Below, piece after piece: positions 4,719 to 14,347 of a stretch of 64,000 nt of DNA. The notes under the pieces were generated by a model. It did no database searches and had not been told where the DNA came from. It saw only the letters and a program-made list of their open reading frames with translations. The stretch is from Granulosicoccus sp. (GTDB lineage Bacteria > Pseudomonadota > Gammaproteobacteria > Granulosicoccales > Granulosicoccaceae), in assembly GCA_020627685.1 (NCBI GenBank), contig JAHDGK010000003.1, positions 129,463-193,462 on the forward strand, given 5' to 3'. Every line of letters starts with the position of its first letter. Position 1 is the stretch's first letter. Both the position numbers and the translations under genes were made by a program.

Positions 4719-5951
4719 ATGTCGGGATTAAAGCAACGATCCGTAGCGTTGGCTATCGGAATGGGTGGCAGTCTACTGTTTTCAAGCCAAATGGCTTTAG
4801 CAAGTGGTGCATGGTATGTCGGATTGGGTGGCGGAGTCTCCAAGCTGAATCCGGACACGACGACCAGCGCTTTCATGCTTGAAGAGGAGCAGGGTAGTGC
4901 TGCTAGTGTTTACCTGGGACTTGATATCAACGACTGGTTAAGCGCTGAAGCCGCTTACACAGATCTTGGCGAAGCTGGTCTGTCCAATGATCAATACATC
5001 GGATATACCGCCATCTCAGTTGGAGGTGTCGCCTACGTTTATCGTAATCGAGGAATGGACTCCAGACAGTCCGGTCTTTCCGGTTACGTGCGTTTAGGCT
5101 TAAACAGCATTACTAATGAATCGAATATCCAGTTGAATGAAGCCGACAACACGGCAGTTTGGATTGGTGCCGGTGTGCAATACCCACTGACAGATCGATT
5201 CGGGTTGCGTGCTGAAGTTGCGAGCTACGATGGTGATGCTCAAGTCGCTTTAGCGTCCCTATATTGGCGTTCGAGAGATGATGGTGACTTCGATAGTGGT
5301 TTTACAACAGAGTCTTCGACGAGTCGCAGCACACCAAGTTCTTCGCGCCGTGATGATCAATTTGGTAACGATGAGTTCGGTGAGGTTGAAGAGTTTGACG
5401 GCTTCGATGTTGATGGAGAGGTCGCTGACGCTGAATTTGAAGATGCCACTGATCTGGACATGGACGATCCGTTCGAAACTGAAATGATGGATGCCGAAGA
5501 TCCGTTTGAAACTCTTGACGCAGATCCTGGCTTTGATGGATTCCCGGTAGCGTCATCTGCTGAGTGTAATGAACCTGCGGCAGGCGAACCCACAGATGCG
5601 GCCGGATGCGCCATGTTCACCGGTGTTTTCGAAGGTATCGAGTTTGACGGCGACACAGCCATCTTATCGATCGATTCAGGATTCTTGCTGCAAGGCCTAG
5701 CAACGTCTTTGAACGACTACCCTCGACTTGTTGTAGAGCTACAGGTCCATACACAAGACTACGCTGAGCAAGGGCGTGCGATGCAACTTTCGCGAGAGCG
5801 AGTATTAGCAATTGCTCGATTCCTGGTTTCGCAAGGGGTTGATGTACAACGCTTAAAAGCACGTGCTTTTGGCTCTGAGGAGCCTCGATTTGACGATGCT
5901 TCACCTGAAAGCCAGCGACTGAATAATCGATTGGCCCTGCGTGTGCTGTAA
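4719..5951 (+). CDS. OmpA-family outer membrane protein with acidic linker
   Basis: This 410-residue envelope protein has four parts. There is a signal peptide ending at MALA (about residue 28) and an OmpA-like eight-strand barrel (about 30-188). A very acidic Asp/Glu-rich linker follows (about 188-290), then a C-terminal OmpA domain (about 300-410). The barrel is clearly paralogous to those of the next two genes (shared YTDLGEA/YADLGEA and SGLSGY/TGLSAF motifs). The C-terminal domain looks degenerate for peptidoglycan binding: the usual HTD is HTQ (Gln346) and the usual NRRVE near the end is NNRLA. It overlaps the next gene by one base (TAATG), so the two are translationally linked. Confidence 0.85.
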   Translation: MSGLKQRSVALAIGMGGSLLFSSQMALASGAWYVGLGGGVSKLNPDTTTSAFMLEEEQGSAASVYLGLDINDWLSAEAAYTDLGEAGLSNDQYIGYTAISVGGVAYVYRNRGMDSRQSGLSGYVRLGLNSITNESNIQLNEADNTAVWIGAGVQYPLTDRFGLRAEVASYDGDAQVALASLYWRSRDDGDFDSGFTTESSTSRSTPSSSRRDDQFGNDEFGEVEEFDGFDVDGEVADAEFEDATDLDMDDPFETEMMDAEDPFETLDADPGFDGFPVASSAECNEPAAGEPTDAAGCAMFTGVFEGIEFDGDTAILSIDSGFLLQGLATSLNDYPRLVVELQVHTQDYAEQGRAMQLSRERVLAIARFLVSQGVDVQRLKARAFGSEEPRFDDASPESQRLNNRLALRVL

Positions 5952-7861
5952 TGCAAATGCACGAGGCATTGACCTGTCAACTCGGACGCTTTGTGAGCCG
6001 ATCACTTGCGGTGTCGGTGCTTTGTGTTGCTATAAGCGGTTGCCAGACTTACGCTGAGCCCGTTGTTGGTGAACTCAACAACGGGTCAGATAACTTCGCT
6101 GGGCGATTCTATGCCGGCGCTTCTTACGGGCAATCATGGCTCAATAAAGATGCGCTTAACGGTGAAAGCGGCGTAGCAATCGAAAATGCGGGCGGTAGTC
6201 AGGTTCGCTTTGGATTTGATATTCACAACCGTCTTGCATTGGAGTTTGATGTTGCCACCTACGGTGTCACCGCGTTCAGAGACGCCTTTGTAGACGATAA
6301 ATATTCGTCATCTTCTGTTAGTGCTTTGGTCTATGGGTTAAATGGCGTCAACCTACGTTCGCGTCGTGAGGGACTTTCGGCGTATGCGCGTATTGGCTAC
6401 GGTACTTTGAATACTGCAGCTGTGGTTGATCAGCTTACATTTAATGAGGCTCAGCCGGTTTTAGGCTTAGGTGCTGAATACGGTCTATCTATGGGCTTAG
6501 GTGTTCGTGCAGAGCTGACTCGCTACGACCAGAACTCCTTATTAACGGGTATCGGCCTTGTTTACCGATTCGGTTCTTCAAGTACCCAATCAGGGTTTGT
6601 AGAACAAACATCTGAACCCAGCCTTGCTGCAGCCGAACCCGGTCCTTCAGTGTCTTCGACACGTGAAGAGAATGGTTCAGTACCGACACCGGAAGACTTG
6701 TTGGAACAAGAACAAAAGCAACTCTTTCAACATACTTTGGCAGATCGATGGCGACCGTCTCAACGTCCCGACGATTCCGATTCAGATGGCGTCATTGATA
6801 TTCAGGATGAATGCCCGGCCACCAAAGCATCCGTGACTGTTGGCAGTAATGGCTGTGGACTGTTTGATGGCGTGTTGAGTGATGTGACATTTACGACTGG
6901 TTCGCATGTGCTTTCAACGCCTGCCAGAGAACAGTTGAATCAAATTGCACAAACATTATTGGCTTTTCCAGAGGCTCGCGTACAAGTAAGAGCGCACACG
7001 GACTCTGAAGGTGCGGAAGACAAAAATCTTGCACACTCGGTTCGTCGAGCTGAAGCAGTCGCTTTGTATTTACAAAGTCGCGGCGTTAACCCGCTACAGC
7101 TTCAAGCCAGAGGAATGGGAGAGTTCTATCCAATCTCATCGAATGAAACCAGTTATGGTCGACAGCAAAACCGGCGTGTGGAGCTGATCACGATCGCTGA
7201 TCTTGATGCCCCTTCAAACCCGGATCTAGGTGATGAAATACTCACTCAACGTGTTAATCCGGGGGCTGCAGTGATGGCGGCCGGTGCCGAGACAGCTGCA
7301 CAAAGTAAGGTGCAGGCGACTATTGAAATTACAGAGCCCGTACAAGAAGGTGAAGAGCCAGAGCTGCAATCCGCTGAATCCGCAGTTGACGCTGATTCAT
7401 TACAAAGTGCGGATGAACAGATTATCGATAAGGCTGAGCCTTCGACAAGCTCAGGATCAGATGCGAAAGTAACCCCTATACCGGAGCCTGGTTATGCCCC
7501 CGGATTAAACTTGTCCGGCGTTATTAATGGTGTTGAATTTGAATCGGGCACTGCTGAACTTAGTGAGCAAGGGAAGGCCGCGTTACAACCGATTCTCATC
7601 AAACTATTGGCAAACCCGGATGTTTCTATTGCGATTATGTCCCACACAGACGACGTGGGAGATGAACGTGAAAATGTGAACCTGTCGTTAAAAAGATCGG
7701 GCGCAGTTCTCAGTTTTCTGGTTGTCGGTGGAGTGGACCCAAACCGACTTCAAGCAGAAGGTTACGGTGAATCCTTACCTTTGGTACAGAATGTGACTGA
7801 ACAAGACCGAGCTCGAAATAGGCGGGTGGAAATCAGGGTATTACCTAAGCCGTCAAACTAG
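5951..7861 (+). CDS. OmpA-family lipoprotein with two C-terminal OmpA domains
   Basis: This 636-residue predicted lipoprotein has lipobox ISGC (Cys31) after a hydrophobic segment. A barrel-like domain (about 45-210) is followed by a linker, one thrombospondin-3-like calcium motif (DSDSDGVIDIQDECP) and a first OmpA domain (about 303-413). A Glu/Ser-rich spacer (about 414-518) then leads to a second OmpA domain (about 520-633). Both OmpA domains keep the HTD and NRRVE residues expected for peptidoglycan (diaminopimelate) binding. Two such domains in one chain are unusual and suggest bivalent anchoring to the cell wall. The start abuts the upstream paralog by one base, and a second ATG two codons in is an alternative. 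Confidence 0.85.
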   Translation: MQMHEALTCQLGRFVSRSLAVSVLCVAISGCQTYAEPVVGELNNGSDNFAGRFYAGASYGQSWLNKDALNGESGVAIENAGGSQVRFGFDIHNRLALEFDVATYGVTAFRDAFVDDKYSSSSVSALVYGLNGVNLRSRREGLSAYARIGYGTLNTAAVVDQLTFNEAQPVLGLGAEYGLSMGLGVRAELTRYDQNSLLTGIGLVYRFGSSSTQSGFVEQTSEPSLAAAEPGPSVSSTREENGSVPTPEDLLEQEQKQLFQHTLADRWRPSQRPDDSDSDGVIDIQDECPATKASVTVGSNGCGLFDGVLSDVTFTTGSHVLSTPAREQLNQIAQTLLAFPEARVQVRAHTDSEGAEDKNLAHSVRRAEAVALYLQSRGVNPLQLQARGMGEFYPISSNETSYGRQQNRRVELITIADLDAPSNPDLGDEILTQRVNPGAAVMAAGAETAAQSKVQATIEITEPVQEGEEPELQSAESAVDADSLQSADEQIIDKAEPSTSSGSDAKVTPIPEPGYAPGLNLSGVINGVEFESGTAELSEQGKAALQPILIKLLANPDVSIAIMSHTDDVGDERENVNLSLKRSGAVLSFLVVGGVDPNRLQAEGYGESLPLVQNVTEQDRARNRRVEIRVLPKPSN

Positions 7862-8055: not shown

Positions 8056-11000
8056 ATGATTAATAACAATTTGCACAAGATTTTATCTTTGACAGGCGCG
8101 AAACCCTCGGCTATGCCGAGTGTTGTTGCGGTTGCGATAAGCATTGCGCTGGGCACGATGTCCTCGTTAGCTTTTGCTCAAACTACAGATTCAATTTCGA
8201 CTGACTCGCTCACACAGCTTCAGGCTCGTATGAGCCAAGGCCCTGATACTGATGGTGACGGCATACCTGATCTAATCGACCTCGACGATGACAACGATGG
8301 TATCCCTGATGCTATTGAAGGTGGAGTAGATGCTGACGGTAACGGTTTGGCAGATGCCAGTTCTACCGACACCGACTTTGACGGAACACCTGATGTTTAT
8401 GACTTAGACAGTGATAACGATGGCATTCTTGACATCCTGGAAGCGCGATTAAATCGTGCCGACGTTATCGCACTCGACTTAAACCCTAATGGTGCGATCG
8501 ACATTTCTTTTCCAGTCGGTGCCAACGGTATTCCCGACATTATTGAAACGTCAGCAGATTCTGGTGTTTTGACTTATACCGTTCCAGATACTGACAATGA
8601 CGGTGTGCCAGACTTCCGCGATCTTGATAGTGATAACGACGGTATCTATGACGTTGTCGAAGCCGGTGGTGTAGATAGCGATACCGACGGACGCACTGAC
8701 GGTTTCTATGATTCAGATGGCAAGGGTGTTGACGATACGATTCAGGCCTCTGCATTACCGTTGTTTGACACAGACGGTGACGGTGTACTTGATTTTCGTG
8801 ATACCGACTCAGACAACGATACGGTGCCTGACCGGGTTGAAGCGGGTGGTAACCCTAGTCAGCCGGCTGACACGGATTCTGACGGTGCCGGTGATTATCG
8901 TGAAACAGATAGCGACGGTGACGGCGTTGGTGATCAAACAGAAGTAGGTGCCAACCCAGAAGATCCTATCGATTCAGATTCAAACGGAACGCCTGATTTC
9001 CAGGATCCGTCAGTCATTACTGACAACGGTGGTGGAACGGATAACGGAAGCGGAACAGACAACGGTTCAAACCCTCCGCAGAATGACGAACCCACTGCTA
9101 CCGACTATGACGGTGATGGAGTTCCAAATTCTATCGATCTTGACGATGACAACGACTCAGTCTTGGATTCCGAAGAAGGATTGATTGACGCTAACGCTGA
9201 TGGTGTGCCTGATGCGGGTTCACGCGATTCAGATGGTGACGGTACGCCAGACGGCTTTGATTTAGATACTGATAATGACGGTATCCTTGACGTGTTTGAA
9301 GCTCGCCTGCCTTCAAATTTGGTAGCGCAGTTCGATCCAACAAATGTGGGTTCTATCCCATCGTCAATTCCAGTAGGTGCAAACGGTGTTGTTGACGCTA
9401 TCGAAACAGCGGTAGATTCTGGAATTATTATCACACCACTGCTTGATACAGATGGCGATGGCACACCTAACTTCATGGACATCGATAGTGACGCTGATGG
9501 CATCGCTGATGTGGTTGAAGCCGGTGGCGAGGACGATGACTTCGATGGTCGTGTTGACTACTTCGAAGATATCGACAACCGCGGTGTTGATGACAAACTG
9601 CAAGCGTCCATGCTGCCAATATTCGATACGGATGGCGACGGCGTTCGTGACTATCTCGACTTAGATTCAGACAACGACACATTGCCTGATTCGGTCGAAA
9701 GTGGTGGCTTCTTCGTTTGGCCAACGGATTCTGATCAGGATGGTGCTGATGATTACCGTGAAACTGACTCAGATAACGATGGTGTTTCCGACACTATCGA
9801 GGCAGGCCCAGACCCACTTAATCCCATTGACACTAACGACGATGAACTGCCTGACTATCAGGACAGCTCAATGCAATTCGGCGGGCAGGGTAATGGTCCT
9901 AGCGGGGAAGTGCCTGGCACTGACGACACAGACGGCGATGGTGTCATCAACTCGCAAGATGCTGATGACGATAACGATGGCATAACCGACGTTATTGAAG
10001 GCACTGGCGACAACGATAGCGATGGTGTTCCAAACTATTTAGATCGCGACAGCGACAATGACGGTGTTCTGGATAGCGTTGAAACTGCCATTGATACCGA
10101 CGGCGATAGTGTGCCGAACTATCTTGATTTAGATAGTGATAACGATGGTATCTACGACGCACCTGAAGCAGGTCGTGATGCGGTAGCGAGCACGGGTCGT
10201 CTTTCATCCTCTGCCACAGTCGATAGTTTTGGTTTGGCGCAAGGTGCCAGCGATGTCCGCTTGGATACAGATGGTGACGGCGTAGTCGATATGCTTGACC
10301 TTGATTCAGATAACGATTCACTGCTCGATGTCATTGAGCAAGGGTATCCTCGTGCAGATGCAAACGGACGCATAACGCCTTTTGTTGATCAAAACGGCGA
10401 CGGTGCAGATGATTCTATGGGTTCTCGTGGTTCAGTACTGCGCGATACCGATAGCGATCGCATACCTGATTTCCGTGATTTGGACAGCGATCAAGATGGA
10501 TTGTCTGACCTTCTGGAAATGGCTGGTCCTTCAATGGATCAGGACAACTCAGGTACCGTTGACAACTTCACTGATGGTAACGGCGATGGCTTGGATGACA
10601 CTGTAGCTGCCAACCCGACACCGCAGACCGATACTGATAACGATGGAAATCCTAACAGTACGGATCTGGATAGTGATAACGACGGTGTTAGCGACTTAAC
10701 GGAAGCGGGCGGTACTGATAGCAACGGTGACAACCGTAATGATCTACTGAACGATGCAGATCTCGATGGTATTCCTGATCGAAACGATGTTGACGTGACA
10801 GGAGGTGCCGATGCAGATGGTGACGGTATCGACGATGCTCACGATGTTGATTTCGTCGGTGGACCGGATTCAGACGGTGACGGCGTTGTTGATAGCGAAG
10901 ATCCTGACAGTGACGGCAATGGTTTTGCCGGTCCGGTAAACGACGGTAATGGCGACGGCCTGTCTCAGGGCGATCCAATTACTTTGCCAGACAGCAACAA

Positions 11001-12306
11001 CGACGGCATCCCTGATGTCAATCAGAACCCTGCCGGTAATAGCAGCGGTCTGATTGAAACAGGATTGGGTGGTTCAGGATTCGGTTGCAGCATTGCAAGT
11101 GTGGGTTCAACGTCTAAGATTGATCCAATGATCCCGCTATTGCTAGGAGGTAGCCTGATGTTCCTGGCATTCCGTTTAAAGCGACGACAAATCGCCCGTG
11201 CTGCCCTTGTGGCTAGCACGGCGGTTCTCGCCGGCTGTAGCACTTTAGGTATCGATCTGGATTTCGGCCGTTCTGCGCCGGATCCAGATTTCGAAAACCG
11301 TTTTTACGTCGGTGCTGGTGCTCTCATGAGTCAGCTGGAGCCGAATACCGACAACGTGGCAGGCACTAGCGTCAGCGAGTCTGATAGCTCAGGTGCCTCG
11401 GTGACTTTAGGTTACGACGTCTCCAACCGCATTAGTGTTGAAGGTCATTATGCTGACTTGGGCGAAGCCACTCTGACGCCGAACGGGACTGTTGGTTATT
11501 CCGTTGCAGGTGTCAGTGCGCTGTATTACGGCATTAACGATGAGCGGGATCGCTCGCGCCGTACTGGGTTGTCAGCGTTCGGTAAGCTCGGTCTGGGCAC
11601 CTTGCAAAATGAGGTGACTGACGTCGATTATCGCCGTGTAAACGATGTCCATCTTTTGGCGGGTGTCGGTGTTGAATACGGCCTGGACAACGGCTTAGCA
11701 GTTCGCGGTGAGATAACTGCGCATGAAACAGACGCAAAGTATGCGCAGCTTGGTGTTGTATACCGTTTCGATGGCAACAACTCTCGTCGCCCAGCGCCAC
11801 CGGCGCCTCCAGTCGAGACACTGCCAAGTGTTGCGATGGTCGAGATAGAGCCTCTTCCTGAGCCGGAACCATTACCCATAGACTCTGACTTTGATGGCGT
11901 AGCCGATCTTATCGACCAATGCCCGACTTCACCGCGTGGGACTCCAGTTAAGTCGGATGGCTGTGCAGTATTCGATGGTGTTATCGAAGGTATCAACTTC
12001 GAGCTTAATTCTGATCGTCTGACAGCGGATGCTTTGGTGATTCTTCAAGGTGTCGCCCAGACATTACAAGACTTCCCGGATGTTCGCGTAACGGTTGAAG
12101 CACACACAGATAACCAGGGTAGTGCTACAAGCAATTTGCAGCTTTCCAAGCGCCGTGCTATTTCAGTTTCACGTTACTTGGTTGATCAAGGGATCGCCGG
12201 TAGCCGTCTCAAGCCACAGGCATTTGGTGAATCAAATCCGCGTACAAGCAATGCGACTAAAGAAGGCCGAGCTGCCAATCGTCGTGTAGAGTTCTCGGTT
12301 CTGTAA
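8056..12306 (+). CDS. Giant TSP3-repeat protein fused to an OmpA-family lipoprotein
   Basis: This uninterrupted 1416-residue frame has a signal peptide ending AFA (about residue 41). A long Asp-rich region (about 64-1005) is built of thrombospondin type 3 calcium-binding repeats of the DTDGDGVPDxxDLDSDNDG type. Residues 1010-1044 look like a CTERM sorting signal: a GCS motif, then a hydrophobic stretch beginning DPMIP, then a basic end (RLKRR). Directly in frame follow a second hydrophobic stretch with lipobox LAGC (Cys1061), an OmpA-type barrel (about 1075-1240), a calcium loop and a C-terminal OmpA domain (about 1306-1416) with canonical HTD and NRRVE. The C-terminal third is a paralog of the two upstream genes. 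Residue 1035 is a Met preceded by a strong ribosome binding site, so two products are possible. Confidence 0.85.
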   Translation: MINNNLHKILSLTGAKPSAMPSVVAVAISIALGTMSSLAFAQTTDSISTDSLTQLQARMSQGPDTDGDGIPDLIDLDDDNDGIPDAIEGGVDADGNGLADASSTDTDFDGTPDVYDLDSDNDGILDILEARLNRADVIALDLNPNGAIDISFPVGANGIPDIIETSADSGVLTYTVPDTDNDGVPDFRDLDSDNDGIYDVVEAGGVDSDTDGRTDGFYDSDGKGVDDTIQASALPLFDTDGDGVLDFRDTDSDNDTVPDRVEAGGNPSQPADTDSDGAGDYRETDSDGDGVGDQTEVGANPEDPIDSDSNGTPDFQDPSVITDNGGGTDNGSGTDNGSNPPQNDEPTATDYDGDGVPNSIDLDDDNDSVLDSEEGLIDANADGVPDAGSRDSDGDGTPDGFDLDTDNDGILDVFEARLPSNLVAQFDPTNVGSIPSSIPVGANGVVDAIETAVDSGIIITPLLDTDGDGTPNFMDIDSDADGIADVVEAGGEDDDFDGRVDYFEDIDNRGVDDKLQASMLPIFDTDGDGVRDYLDLDSDNDTLPDSVESGGFFVWPTDSDQDGADDYRETDSDNDGVSDTIEAGPDPLNPIDTNDDELPDYQDSSMQFGGQGNGPSGEVPGTDDTDGDGVINSQDADDDNDGITDVIEGTGDNDSDGVPNYLDRDSDNDGVLDSVETAIDTDGDSVPNYLDLDSDNDGIYDAPEAGRDAVASTGRLSSSATVDSFGLAQGASDVRLDTDGDGVVDMLDLDSDNDSLLDVIEQGYPRADANGRITPFVDQNGDGADDSMGSRGSVLRDTDSDRIPDFRDLDSDQDGLSDLLEMAGPSMDQDNSGTVDNFTDGNGDGLDDTVAANPTPQTDTDNDGNPNSTDLDSDNDGVSDLTEAGGTDSNGDNRNDLLNDADLDGIPDRNDVDVTGGADADGDGIDDAHDVDFVGGPDSDGDGVVDSEDPDSDGNGFAGPVNDGNGDGLSQGDPITLPDSNNDGIPDVNQNPAGNSSGLIETGLGGSGFGCSIASVGSTSKIDPMIPLLLGGSLMFLAFRLKRRQIARAALVASTAVLAGCSTLGIDLDFGRSAPDPDFENRFYVGAGALMSQLEPNTDNVAGTSVSESDSSGASVTLGYDVSNRISVEGHYADLGEATLTPNGTVGYSVAGVSALYYGINDERDRSRRTGLSAFGKLGLGTLQNEVTDVDYRRVNDVHLLAGVGVEYGLDNGLAVRGEITAHETDAKYAQLGVVYRFDGNNSRRPAPPAPPVETLPSVAMVEIEPLPEPEPLPIDSDFDGVADLIDQCPTSPRGTPVKSDGCAVFDGVIEGINFELNSDRLTADALVILQGVAQTLQDFPDVRVTVEAHTDNQGSATSNLQLSKRRAISVSRYLVDQGIAGSRLKPQAFGESNPRTSNATKEGRAANRRVEFSVL
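8245..9870 (+). repeat. Long-period tandem duplication in the TSP3 region
   Basis: Residues 64-316 and 350-605 of the 1416-residue protein align through their length with the same order of landmarks: the DLDDDND opening, an EARL segment, PVGANG, VEAGG, KGVDD or RGVDD with QAS, and a closing DYRETDSD. The offset is about 858 bp (286 codons). They are two copies of a super-repeat made of shorter Asp-rich loops, separated by a Gly/Asn/Thr-rich spacer. Confidence 0.75.
11145..11160 (+). promoter_or_regulatory. Internal ribosome binding site and in-frame ATG
   Basis: AGGAGG at 11145-11150, a 7-nt spacer and ATG at 11158 form a near-ideal Shine-Dalgarno/start pair inside the long reading frame, in the same frame (codon 1035). 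The peptide starting there has an n-region with RLKRR, a hydrophobic core and lipobox LAGC, the complete layout of a lipoprotein signal peptide. Confidence 0.6.
11158..12306 (+). other. Possible independent OmpA lipoprotein product from an internal start
   Basis: If translation starts at the internal ATG, the product is 382 residues long. It has a lipoprotein signal with its cysteine at residue 27, a barrel domain, a DSDFDGVADLIDQCP calcium loop and an OmpA domain. This equals the layout of the neighbouring paralogs as stand-alone proteins. The same codons would serve as the end of the CTERM-like helix of the long protein and as the signal peptide of the short one. Whether the cell makes one or two products cannot be decided from sequence alone. 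Confidence 0.4.
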
Positions 12307-12724
12307 ATCCCATAAAGATCAAACTAGACGTAAAGGCTAGATGGAGTCTCATTTAGCCATTTTTAACGTGAATCAGCCTACAAATTCACGTCTGAATTGA
12401 AACTACAGAAATTAATTTCTGCAACCGGTTGCCACCGCTTCAATTCCCCCCCTGCGACTATGTCGCCATCGCTTAATCCTTATTGCAACAAGAACATGCG
12501 GGCGTTTTTCGTTTGGAAAACGCTTGTAGTTATATTACAAAGAGTAGGTAATATTCGTCCAAGTTACTGTTTTTGTAGGATTTTTACCTAATTTGTTCAC
12601 ACTCTTACACATCAAGCTCAAGTATAGTTCAGCGCATTGGGGCCGCTAACGCGTAGAGCGCGAGGCGGTGTAGATAGCTTTACGTCCCGCCAATTTCGCA
12701 ATGAACAATTCTTGGAGTACATCG
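12307..12724 (+). other. Intergenic region / leader upstream of pckA
   Basis: No convincing gene is present in these 418 bases. Two small dyads are visible: CGTGAAT/ATTCACG (12367-12390) and GCGTTTT/AAAACGC (12502-12523). Neither is followed by a good T-tract on the plus strand. The region is A/T-rich towards 12540-12630, where the pckA promoter most likely lies, but I could not choose a -35/-10 pair. Confidence 0.5.
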
Positions 12725-14347
12725 ATGAATCAACCGGCTCAAACCTTGGACCTTGGGTTAGACCTCTCACCGTACGGCATCCTCAGCACAGCAGAGGTTG
12801 TTCATAACCCGTCCTATGAGCAGCTCTTTGAAGAAGAACTTCGAGATGATCTCCGGGAGCTTGAGCGTGGTGTGCTGACGGCCAATGGCGCGGTCGCAGT
12901 CGATACCGGTGCTTTCACGGGCCGCAGCCCGAAAGACAAATACATCGTTAAAGACAGCGTGACGAAAGACACCCTATGGTGGGCGGATGCCGGCTCGAAT
13001 GACAATAACCCGATTTCTGAAAGCGTTTGGGCCGACCTAAAGAGTTTGGTTAGTAGCCACCTGACGGGTAAAAGACTCTTTGTTGTCGATACCTACTGTG
13101 GCGCTAACGAGAATAGCCGTCTCAGTGTTCGCTTTGTCACTGAGGTTGCCTGGCAGGCTCACTTTGTCACCAATATGTTTATCCGCCCAAGTGAAGCGGA
13201 GCTAGCGACTTACACACCGGATTTCGTTGTTATGAACGGTGCATCAGTGGTTAATGATAAGTGGCAGGAACACGGCCTGAATTCAGAGAATTTCGTGGCT
13301 TTTAATTTCTCCGAAAAAATGCAGCTTATTGGCGGCACTTGGTACGGCGGTGAGATGAAGAAAGGTCTGTTCTCCTACATGAACTACATCCTTCCTCTCA
13401 AAGGCATTGCTTCAATGCATTGTTCTGCCAATGTGGGTGAAGCTGGCGATACTGCGGTATTTTTCGGATTGTCAGGAACCGGTAAAACCACCTTGTCTAC
13501 TGACCCAAAACGCCGCTTGATTGGTGATGACGAACACGGTTGGGACGACGATGGTGTTTTCAATTTCGAAGGCGGCTGCTACGCGAAAACCATCCGATTA
13601 AGTGCTGAAGCCGAGCCTGATATTTACGGTGCTATTCGACGTAACGCATTGCTGGAAAATGTTGTTGTTCGTGATGATGGCACCGTTGATTTTGACGATG
13701 GCAGTAAGACGGAGAACGCGCGAGTGTCTTACCCAATCGATCATATCGATAACATCGTAAAGCCCGTGTCTAGAGCAGGGCATGCTAGTAAAGTCATCTT
13801 TCTAACGGCGGATGCCTTTGGTGTATTACCGGCGGTATCTAAATTGACAGCCGAGCAAACCCGTTACCACTTCCTTTCAGGCTTTACCGCAAAACTTGCG
13901 GGAACTGAACTAGGCGTAACCAGTCCACAACCCACGTTCTCAGCCTGTTTTGGTAAAGCGTTTTTAAGCTTGCACCCAACGCAATATGCCGATGAATTAG
14001 GTAAGCGTATGGAGGCGTCAGGTGCTCAAGCGTATTTAGTTAATACAGGATGGAACGGCACCGGTAGTCGCATATCGATTAAAGCGACACGGGCTATTAT
14101 TGATGCAATCCTGGACGGATCAATCGATGATTGCGAAACAACCGTTATCCCAACGTTTAACTTATCTGTACCGACTGCTTTGTCGGGAGTTGAAACGCAC
14201 CTTCTTGATCCACGCAACACCTATGACAACGTAGAAGAGTGGCAAGAAAAGGCAGATGATCTTGCTCGCCTGTTTATCAAGAATTTTGCTCAGTACACTG
14301 ATACGCAAAGCGGACTCGATCTGGTGAGTGCAGGTCCTTCGGTTTAG
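12725..14347 (+). CDS. pckA: Phosphoenolpyruvate carboxykinase (ATP)
   Basis: This 540-residue enzyme converts oxaloacetate plus ATP to phosphoenolpyruvate, CO2 and ADP, the first committed step of gluconeogenesis. The ATP-type family is recognised by TGRSPKDKY, the kinase P-loop GLSGTGKT (about 248-255), IGDDEHGW and [10 protein letters not shown]. The frame extends to an ATG at 12701. The ATG at 12725 has GGAG seven bases upstream, and it puts the P-loop at the same numbering as in the 540-residue E. coli enzyme, so it is preferred. It is convergent with the M48 protease gene, with only 13 bases between the stops. Confidence 0.97.

Follow-up and report, generated by a model that had tools for sequence, protein, structure and literature searches.

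A Granulosicoccus gene joins an acidic repeat protein to an OmpA-type outer-membrane barrel within one reading frame, and the two halves meet at an internal JDVT-CTERM sorting tag followed immediately by a second export signal. We consider the product to be probably a secretory polyprotein, in which a membrane hairpin between the halves would be cut by MrtJ and LspA to give a 1:1 pair resembling TraA and TraB. The gene would then supply equal numbers of a calcium-binding surface protein and its partner, a barrel of the outer membrane. Should both cuts prove real, a single bacterial surface polyprotein would set the receptor-to-barrel ratio. It would then also offer a natural way to ask whether internal tags are substrates for glutamic intramembrane proteases, and would hint at TraAB-like systems of cell contact beyond the myxobacteria.

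One open frame joins an acidic repeat protein to an OmpA-type barrel

The first-pass annotation had proposed that one frame runs from a repeat protein into an OmpA lipoprotein. Translation bears this out: the ORF encodes 1416 aa with no internal stop. Its parts, and two neighboring genes, lie as follows in the window, by which we mean the whole 64,000-nucleotide stretch that was analysed.

8056 to 12306, + strand: fused ORF, 1416 aa (translation, one frame)
8056 to 8178, + strand: N-terminal signal peptide, residues 1-41, ending SLAFA before Q (from translation; predicted cleavage site)
8179 to 11070, + strand: acidic repeat region of the thrombospondin-type-3 kind (motif count)
11071 to 11175, + strand: internal JDVT-CTERM sorting tag, residues 1006-1040 (NF033191)
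11145 to 11160, + strand: AGGAGG-N7-ATG, possible internal start at Met1035 (pattern match, duplex energy)
11173 to 11199, + strand: basic loop RLKRRQIAR, serving both as tag tail and as n-region for the second signal (translation)
11200 to 11238, + strand: second signal segment with lipobox LAGC, Cys1061 (translation)
11287 to 11769, + strand: OmpA-type beta-barrel, residues 1078-1238 (Pfam PF13505, PF01389; model strands)
11998 to 12282, + strand: OmpA peptidoglycan-binding domain, residues 1315-1409 (PF00691; solved relatives)
5951 to 7861, + strand: paralog adjoining the fused ORF, a barrel with two OmpA domains and a lipoprotein-type start
4719 to 5951, + strand: third barrel-OmpA gene in tandem, ending on the base that starts the next gene

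By motif count, residues 1-1005 hold 41 [DN]x[DN]x[DN]G motifs. The 1416 residues include four cysteines, none before residue 1011, with Cys1011 in the tag and Cys1061 in the lipobox; the other two, Cys1289 and Cys1303, lie ahead of the OmpA domain, as does one TSP3-like stretch. Stretches of the repeat part resemble MtsC at 48.6 bits in NCBIfam, far below the cut-off of 350. With the full protein as query, Pfam TSP_3 gave no match at E 1 or better, and the repeat half had no solved-structure relative at E 0.01.

In the C-terminal half, Pfam searches with the full protein matched the barrel at 46 bits (PF13505) and 34.8 bits (PF01389) and the OmpA domain at 78.5 bits (PF00691), and the PDB matches shown were OmpA, OmpA/Pal-type domains and OmpA-like barrels. 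An AlphaFold2 model of residues 990-1416 (mean pLDDT 68) shows the strands of the barrel and a well-modeled OmpA domain; at the hairpin pLDDT falls below 50, and the model is uninformative on that segment. A consensus scan of 10900-12750 for a sigma-70-like promoter serving the OmpA half found no match on the + strand.

A sorting tag and a second export signal share a basic loop

The tag, GCSIASVGSTSKIDPMIPLLLGGSLMFLAFRLKRR, is followed by QIARAALVASTAVLAGC and then by the barrel and OmpA domain. It has the layout of its class: GCS (residues 1010-1012), placing a Cys (codon 11086-11088) before the helix, then the hydrophobic helix DPMIPLLLGGSLMFLAF and the basic tail RLKRR (residues 1040-1044). 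The likeness to CTERM signals suggested by the first-pass annotation is confirmed by profile, since JDVT-CTERM (NF033191) scores 32.9 bits on a 50-aa scan and 31.7 bits in the genome search, over a cut-off of 27. It was the sole match of the 50-aa stretch up to E 10, and the MYXO-CTERM model (TIGR03901) did not match there. The position is not that of a JDVT-CTERM client, which would carry the tag at its extreme C-terminus: 376 aa come after the tag match.

By reading and by regular expression, a lipoprotein signal follows, with basic RLKRRQIAR, hydrophobic h-region AALVASTAVLAGC and the lipobox Cys (codon 11236-11238, in LAGC). An LspA substrate would have its signal at the start of the chain, and this one is internal unless Met1035 begins a second product. 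GCS, the DPMIP helix, RLKRR, AGGAGG-N7-ATG and LAGC all lie where the first-pass annotation had placed them.

The loop that follows the tag helix carries a net positive charge in all 43 of the distinct fused proteins. It has a median length of 11 aa (range 2 to 37) and a mean of 5.1 K/R against 0.33 D/E, one positive residue being added by construction because the loop is defined to start at the first K/R. The 20 residues past the presumed cut hold 1.2 K/R and 2.3 D/E. After the loop comes a hydrophobic segment and then, by a loose regular expression, a lipobox-like (26) or AxA-like (17) motif; at least three of the 26 lipobox-like calls (L039, L111, L127) look rather to be of the AxA type. 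The second signal thus seems able to belong to either class, something easier to reconcile with release of an outer-membrane protein than with a fixed linker.

A TG[LIV]-like motif precedes the tag Cys at 48 of 58 fused or split sites and at 49 of 91 others (Fisher p 0.0004; site G003:C347 omitted). We do not claim it as a signature of a partner, because the rows share ancestry and the motif is also present at half of the other sites.

A proposed route to two exported products

In the reading we favor, the chain would be exported from its N-terminal signal peptide until the JDVT-CTERM helix halted in the inner membrane, oriented out-to-in with the basic tail on the cytoplasmic side. The basic loop would double as the n-region of the second signal, which would re-enter the membrane in-to-out, so that the barrel-OmpA half would be exported too. 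Both halves would thus be periplasmic, with a single loop serving both signals. MrtJ is predicted to cut after a modified Cys1011, freeing the acidic repeat protein with a lipid anchor at Cys1011, and Lgt and LspA would lipidate and cut at Cys1061, releasing a barrel-OmpA lipoprotein for the outer membrane and leaving a short helical hairpin as waste. Products of one polyprotein would be exactly 1:1 by construction, a pair like TraA, a CTERM surface receptor, and TraB, with its barrel, TSP3 and OmpA parts. The repeat protein may be displayed at the surface, pair with the barrel and act in adhesion or recognition.

The first cut is modeled on MrtX. The sections of PMC11980579 covered here describe Cys-dependent cutting of the TraA tag by MrtX, and its authors propose that the tag Cys is lipidated beforehand and the chain cut on its far side. 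By analogy, MrtJ may act in the same mode on an internal tag.

In this genome, which comprises 117 contigs and 4.93 Mb, MrtJ is encoded at 110.7 bits (cut-off 75; EExxxR and HxxxN present), as is a type II secretin, GspD, at 610 bits (cut-off 351). The first-pass annotation had offered intramembrane cleavage of the fusion, internal initiation, or both as sources of two products; because MrtJ is encoded, cleavage fits. Five tag matches occur in this genome at E 1 or better, one being the window's. Two are further fusions ahead of OmpA halves (L024, 31.0 bits; L026, 23.5 bits, below the cut-off), one is a tag of the ordinary C-terminal type, cut off by a contig edge (L025, 27.6 bits), and one we take as a chance match (L027, 14.7 bits). 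The ordinary tag indicates that MrtJ is present for more than the fusions.

A cut by LspA alone (by signal peptidase I in other members) would free the barrel and keep the repeat protein on its CTERM helix in the inner membrane. Such a cut needs no sorting protease, and in a 16-sequence alignment that includes the window the lipobox Cys is invariant (16/16). We nevertheless regard it as unlikely, as none of the 12 fused rows of that alignment has lost the tag Cys and MrtJ is present in 28 of 28 good family genomes. Over all 48 genomes of the family, JDVT-CTERM was found in 46 and MrtJ in 44.

Internal initiation at position 11158

The AGGAGG at 11145-11150 lies 7 nt before an in-frame ATG at 11158-11160. 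Initiation there would yield a separate OmpA lipoprotein from codons that also end a sorted protein. The local signal is good: AGGAGGT is well spaced, and its Shine-Dalgarno (SD) duplex, at -11.5 kcal/mol, is the strongest of 24 in-frame internal ATGs in the three ORFs tested and stronger than those of the starts at 5951, 8056 and 12701. Yet AGGAGG-N4-9-ATG occurs in the window at chance frequency (2 observed, 2.28 expected), and the nearest relative (L001) keeps the ATG with a weaker SD (-5.8 kcal/mol).

We compared 42 of the 43 fused junctions (L181, which has no tag coordinates, was left out) with 706 control windows. An SD of at least 6 letters occurs at one junction of the 42, the window's own. 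In-frame starts with at least 4 SD letters occur at 17 (40%) against 28.6% of controls, those with at least 5 letters at 5 (12%) against 4.1%, and ATGs with at least 4 letters at 9 (21%) against 8.2%. The excess is mild and favors internal initiation, but the controls come from the same ORFs, which are largely acidic repeats with few Leu, Val or Met codons, and so offer fewer start codons than a membrane segment would. Moreover, the upstream half would still read on into OmpA. We reject internal initiation as a general mechanism, the SD being unconserved; a start at 11158 is possible in the window gene and would leave the overall architecture unexplained. As the source of the two products we judge it improbable.

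Close homologs occur both fused and split

A search with residues 999-1416 found 22 loci, of which 15 (L001 to L015) are close homologs in Granulosicoccus or Granulosicoccaceae records. Eleven of the 15 run in one frame from tag through lipobox to the OmpA end, three (L007, L009, L014) are two separate genes, and one (L013) is a barrel lipoprotein without a repeat-tag part upstream. The split cases show a one-base deletion relative to the fused genes and a stop/start overlap, TCATGA (ATGA). Some tags of this clade score below the JDVT cut-off, both fused (L001, 23.2; L008, 16.8; L010, 16.9 bits) and split (L007, 23.7; L009, 24.9; L014, 21.4 bits).

The first-pass annotation had named homologs with a stop between the parts, together with evidence of a sequencing error here, among the findings that would count against its proposal. 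Such homologs exist, and the three with separate genes are what would favor a sequencing or assembly error having joined two genes. The split genes nevertheless stand among fused rows in the tree and so give no sign of an error in the window. The 11 fused homologs come from other assemblies, and fused paralogs occur in other genera and in three other families. A joining error is in effect refuted, its probability negligible.

On a quick 87-row tree, the fused label requires at least nine changes, eight of them forced by well-supported branches. The tree was drawn from 130 matching ORFs, omitting those with a best domain below 180 bits or identical last 150 residues; "fused" meant a match above 8 bits, within 120 aa upstream, to a profile from the 150 tag sites described below (L181 set by hand), and "split" was a hand list of the 16 barrel-adjacent sites plus L007, L009 and L014. 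For the window clade, a more careful tree (13 fused rows, 3 split, 1 alone, and 6 outgroup rows, 5 fused and 1 split) places the split genes beside L002 and L003 with support 94/91. Grouping the 13 fused rows as one clade was rejected (AU p 0.0015; the group was named after the quick tree had been inspected). Switching between fused and ATGA-coupled split forms may point to selection for 1:1 supply.

The chain might also stay whole, its two helices forming a membrane hairpin between two domains, and the open frame allows this. However, an inner-membrane tether a few residues before the barrel would hardly permit outer-membrane placement, the split orthologs carry separate signals at the same place, and the loop varies from 2 to 37 aa; we think an uncut chain quite improbable. 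Conservation argues that the tag and its fusion are beyond chance, whereas the SD-ATG number alone is at chance.

Internal tags recur across the family and class

Sorting tags of this class have been described as C-terminal, and the first-pass annotation had stated that they normally lie at the extreme C-terminus. That expectation calls for revision. We surveyed 150 tag sites among the matches listed, down to 26.6 bits, in 43 of the 48 family genomes, the curated family models being applied to the window and its clade. At 115 sites a stop comes within 35 aa past the tag match, and at 32 the frame stays open for another 342-487 aa, passing a basic loop and then a second signal before it reaches an OmpA-family half; none of the 150 listed sites has a tail between 35 and 342 aa. 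Three sites run off their contigs. Two of them (G028:C130 and G002:C128) have the second signal segment, the contig of the former ending before any barrel, and G003:C347 is not assignable as fused or C-terminal. About one fifth of the listed sites (34/150) are thus internal, and all 32 readable to a stop precede an OmpA-family half; all 32 C-halves match a profile built from them, a circular result for that reason. At least one fusion was present in 23 of the 43 genomes. An order-level search returned the same 48 genomes as the family.

A same-strand OmpA-family ORF lies downstream of 24 of the 115 C-terminal sites (16 with a barrel, 8 with the OmpA domain only), counting profile matches that start within 900 nt; at least 600 nt were readable at 113 of the 115. 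The other 91 sites have no adjoining OmpA-family ORF. With 91 of 115 sites lacking such a neighbor and 8 of 24 neighbors lacking a barrel, a barrel partner is no rule.

At class level, 39 of 369 genomes (some belonging to the family) carry the tag at E 1e-5. Among 57 listed sites outside the family, three are fused (L217, which runs off its contig, L232 and L237), from three other families, and nine have an adjacent barrel ORF (L199, L202, L211, L213, L236, L239, L240, L242, L247). The remaining 45 have neither in the stretch read, including L197, counted as partnerless on weak partner-profile domains only (17 and 13 bits). Fused paralogs were also seen in other genera, and in the family of G225 one of three genomes has the tag.

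A Myxococcota counterpart and related systems

One internal-tag protein of this kind is already published. In the parts of PMC11980579 covered, MXAN_5598 of Myxococcus xanthus combines a large adhesin-like N-part, an internal MYXO-CTERM, a barrel and OmpA within a single ORF; the authors suggest processing and anchoring of the N-part, term the layout atypical and internal tags rare, and liken the protein to TraA and TraB combined. Those parts make no mention of a second export signal in MXAN_5598. An inventory of cargo in outer-membrane vesicles lists the protein under the description OmpA domain protein (PMC4158809, in the portion covered). It shares with the window protein a single ORF in which an internal Cys-type tag comes before a barrel of the outer membrane and an OmpA domain, but belongs to the MYXO-CTERM and MrtX system of Myxococcota, whereas here the tag is JDVT-CTERM and the protease encoded in the genome is MrtJ. 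New in the present case are the occurrence of this layout with JDVT, the fact that it recurs, a loop that doubles as part of a second export signal, and the switching between fusion and split.

The covered parts of PMC11980579 contain no internal JDVT-CTERM, though the original JDVT description might mention internal tags; nothing on internal tags appeared under the terms searched in the portion covered of the GlyGly-CTERM paper PMC13393428. Searches on bacterial secretory polyproteins, FbcH and internal sorting signals gave no relevant title or abstract among the matches listed.

Two Citreicoccus (Myxococcota) proteins (L251, L252) each join, in one frame, an internal MYXO-CTERM-like tag, an AxA-type signal and a TraB-like barrel, while traA and traB are separate there; the L251 tag scores 19.6 bits against a cut-off of 20. 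A junction search of 117 Myxococcota genomes gave matches in 79, many to the barrel alone, and among the best 30 loci 26 have the strict one-frame pattern of GC, helix, RR, AxA, and YKPG or YKPA. A profile comparison of the JDVT-type and Myxococcota fusion barrels, with MXAN_5598 outside it, aligns the tag alone (probability 6.7%), and the barrels of the two systems appear to have no detectable relation at the sequence level.

An internal Cys-type tag with an immediate second export signal may be a general way of encoding a surface receptor and a barrel as a polyprotein. One basic loop would serve two opposed signals, two unrelated membrane proteases (MrtJ or MrtX for one cut, LspA or signal peptidase I for the other) would free the partners with a hairpin as waste, and the arrangement would have arisen separately in the JDVT (Gammaproteobacteria) and MYXO (Myxococcota) systems, switching between fused and ATGA-split forms. 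We hold the chances of this wider proposal to be evenly balanced. The Bradyrhizobium FbcH cytochrome b/c1 polyprotein, a membrane protein precursor from a bacterium, is cleaved at an internal signal; unlike the window protein, it has no sorting tag and no outer-membrane products.

In the sections covered, the genes traA and traB have four bases in common (PMC3325183), and TraB comprises a barrel, TSP3 and OmpA and pairs 1:1 with TraA (PMC12045341). The likeness lies in a CTERM-tagged surface protein with a barrel-TSP3-OmpA partner and in that overlap, which resembles the ATGA of the split orthologs. However, TraA and TraB are two genes and the protein here comes from one ORF, and the repeats of TraA are Cys-rich whereas those of the N-half here are acidic and without Cys. 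The window protein has a TraB-like architecture by Pfam and by model, with barrel and OmpA over their cut-offs and TSP_3 weak (15.6 bits against 25). We rejected TraB membership for the C-half, which scores far below the cut-off of the TraB model NF033763 (104-108 bits against 700), with the TSP3-OmpA end matched and the barrel part unmatched.

With the JDVT-CTERM/MrtJ system (NF033191, NF033192) this genome shares tag and protease, both exceeding their cut-offs, but here the tag is internal. MrtJ is described beside a single JDVT-CTERM protein in the covered parts of PMC11980579; here an OmpA-barrel gene precedes mrtJ, and several tag proteins are encoded by most genomes of the family. At 19 of 20 mrtJ loci a same-strand OmpA-family ORF lies upstream, with overlapping frames or at most 10 nt between them at 14 and a gap of 86-429 nt at 5.

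Gene order around the fused ORF and its homologs

Immediately 5’ of the fused gene, positions 4719-7861 of the window hold a tandem pair of additional barrel-OmpA genes, in which the last base of the first gene is also the first base of the second. Downstream of the fused gene, the window carries a pckA-like gene and other genes without a second fusion, whereas in six close homologs (L004, L005, L006, L011, L012 and L015) the gene is followed in tandem by another tag-barrel fusion.

The two genes of the split orthologs L007, L009 and L014 overlap by ATGA near 6156, where these loci also carry an insert of about 100 nt. If the overlap ATG is its start, the downstream lipoprotein has an unusually long n-region.

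Partners of JDVT-CTERM and MYXO-CTERM tags

Of the 20 loci read (L028 at G000:C73, and L059-L077), 19 had a co-directional OmpA-family ORF upstream of mrtJ, the gene of the cognate JDVT-CTERM protease; the eight of these ORFs included in the tree formed a single clade. Shortly N-terminal to the tag Cys, a TG[LIV]-like motif was commoner at sites with a fused or adjacent OmpA-family partner (48/58) than at others (49/91), these sites being related to one another.

In Myxococcota, an internal MYXO-CTERM-like tag followed by an AxA-type signal and a barrel is widespread (Citreicoccus frames L251 and L252, and L260-L289, the 30 best loci matching that junction, 26 of them with the strict pattern in one frame), in contrast to the rarity of internal tags described in parts of a publication on MYXO-CTERM (PMC11980579).
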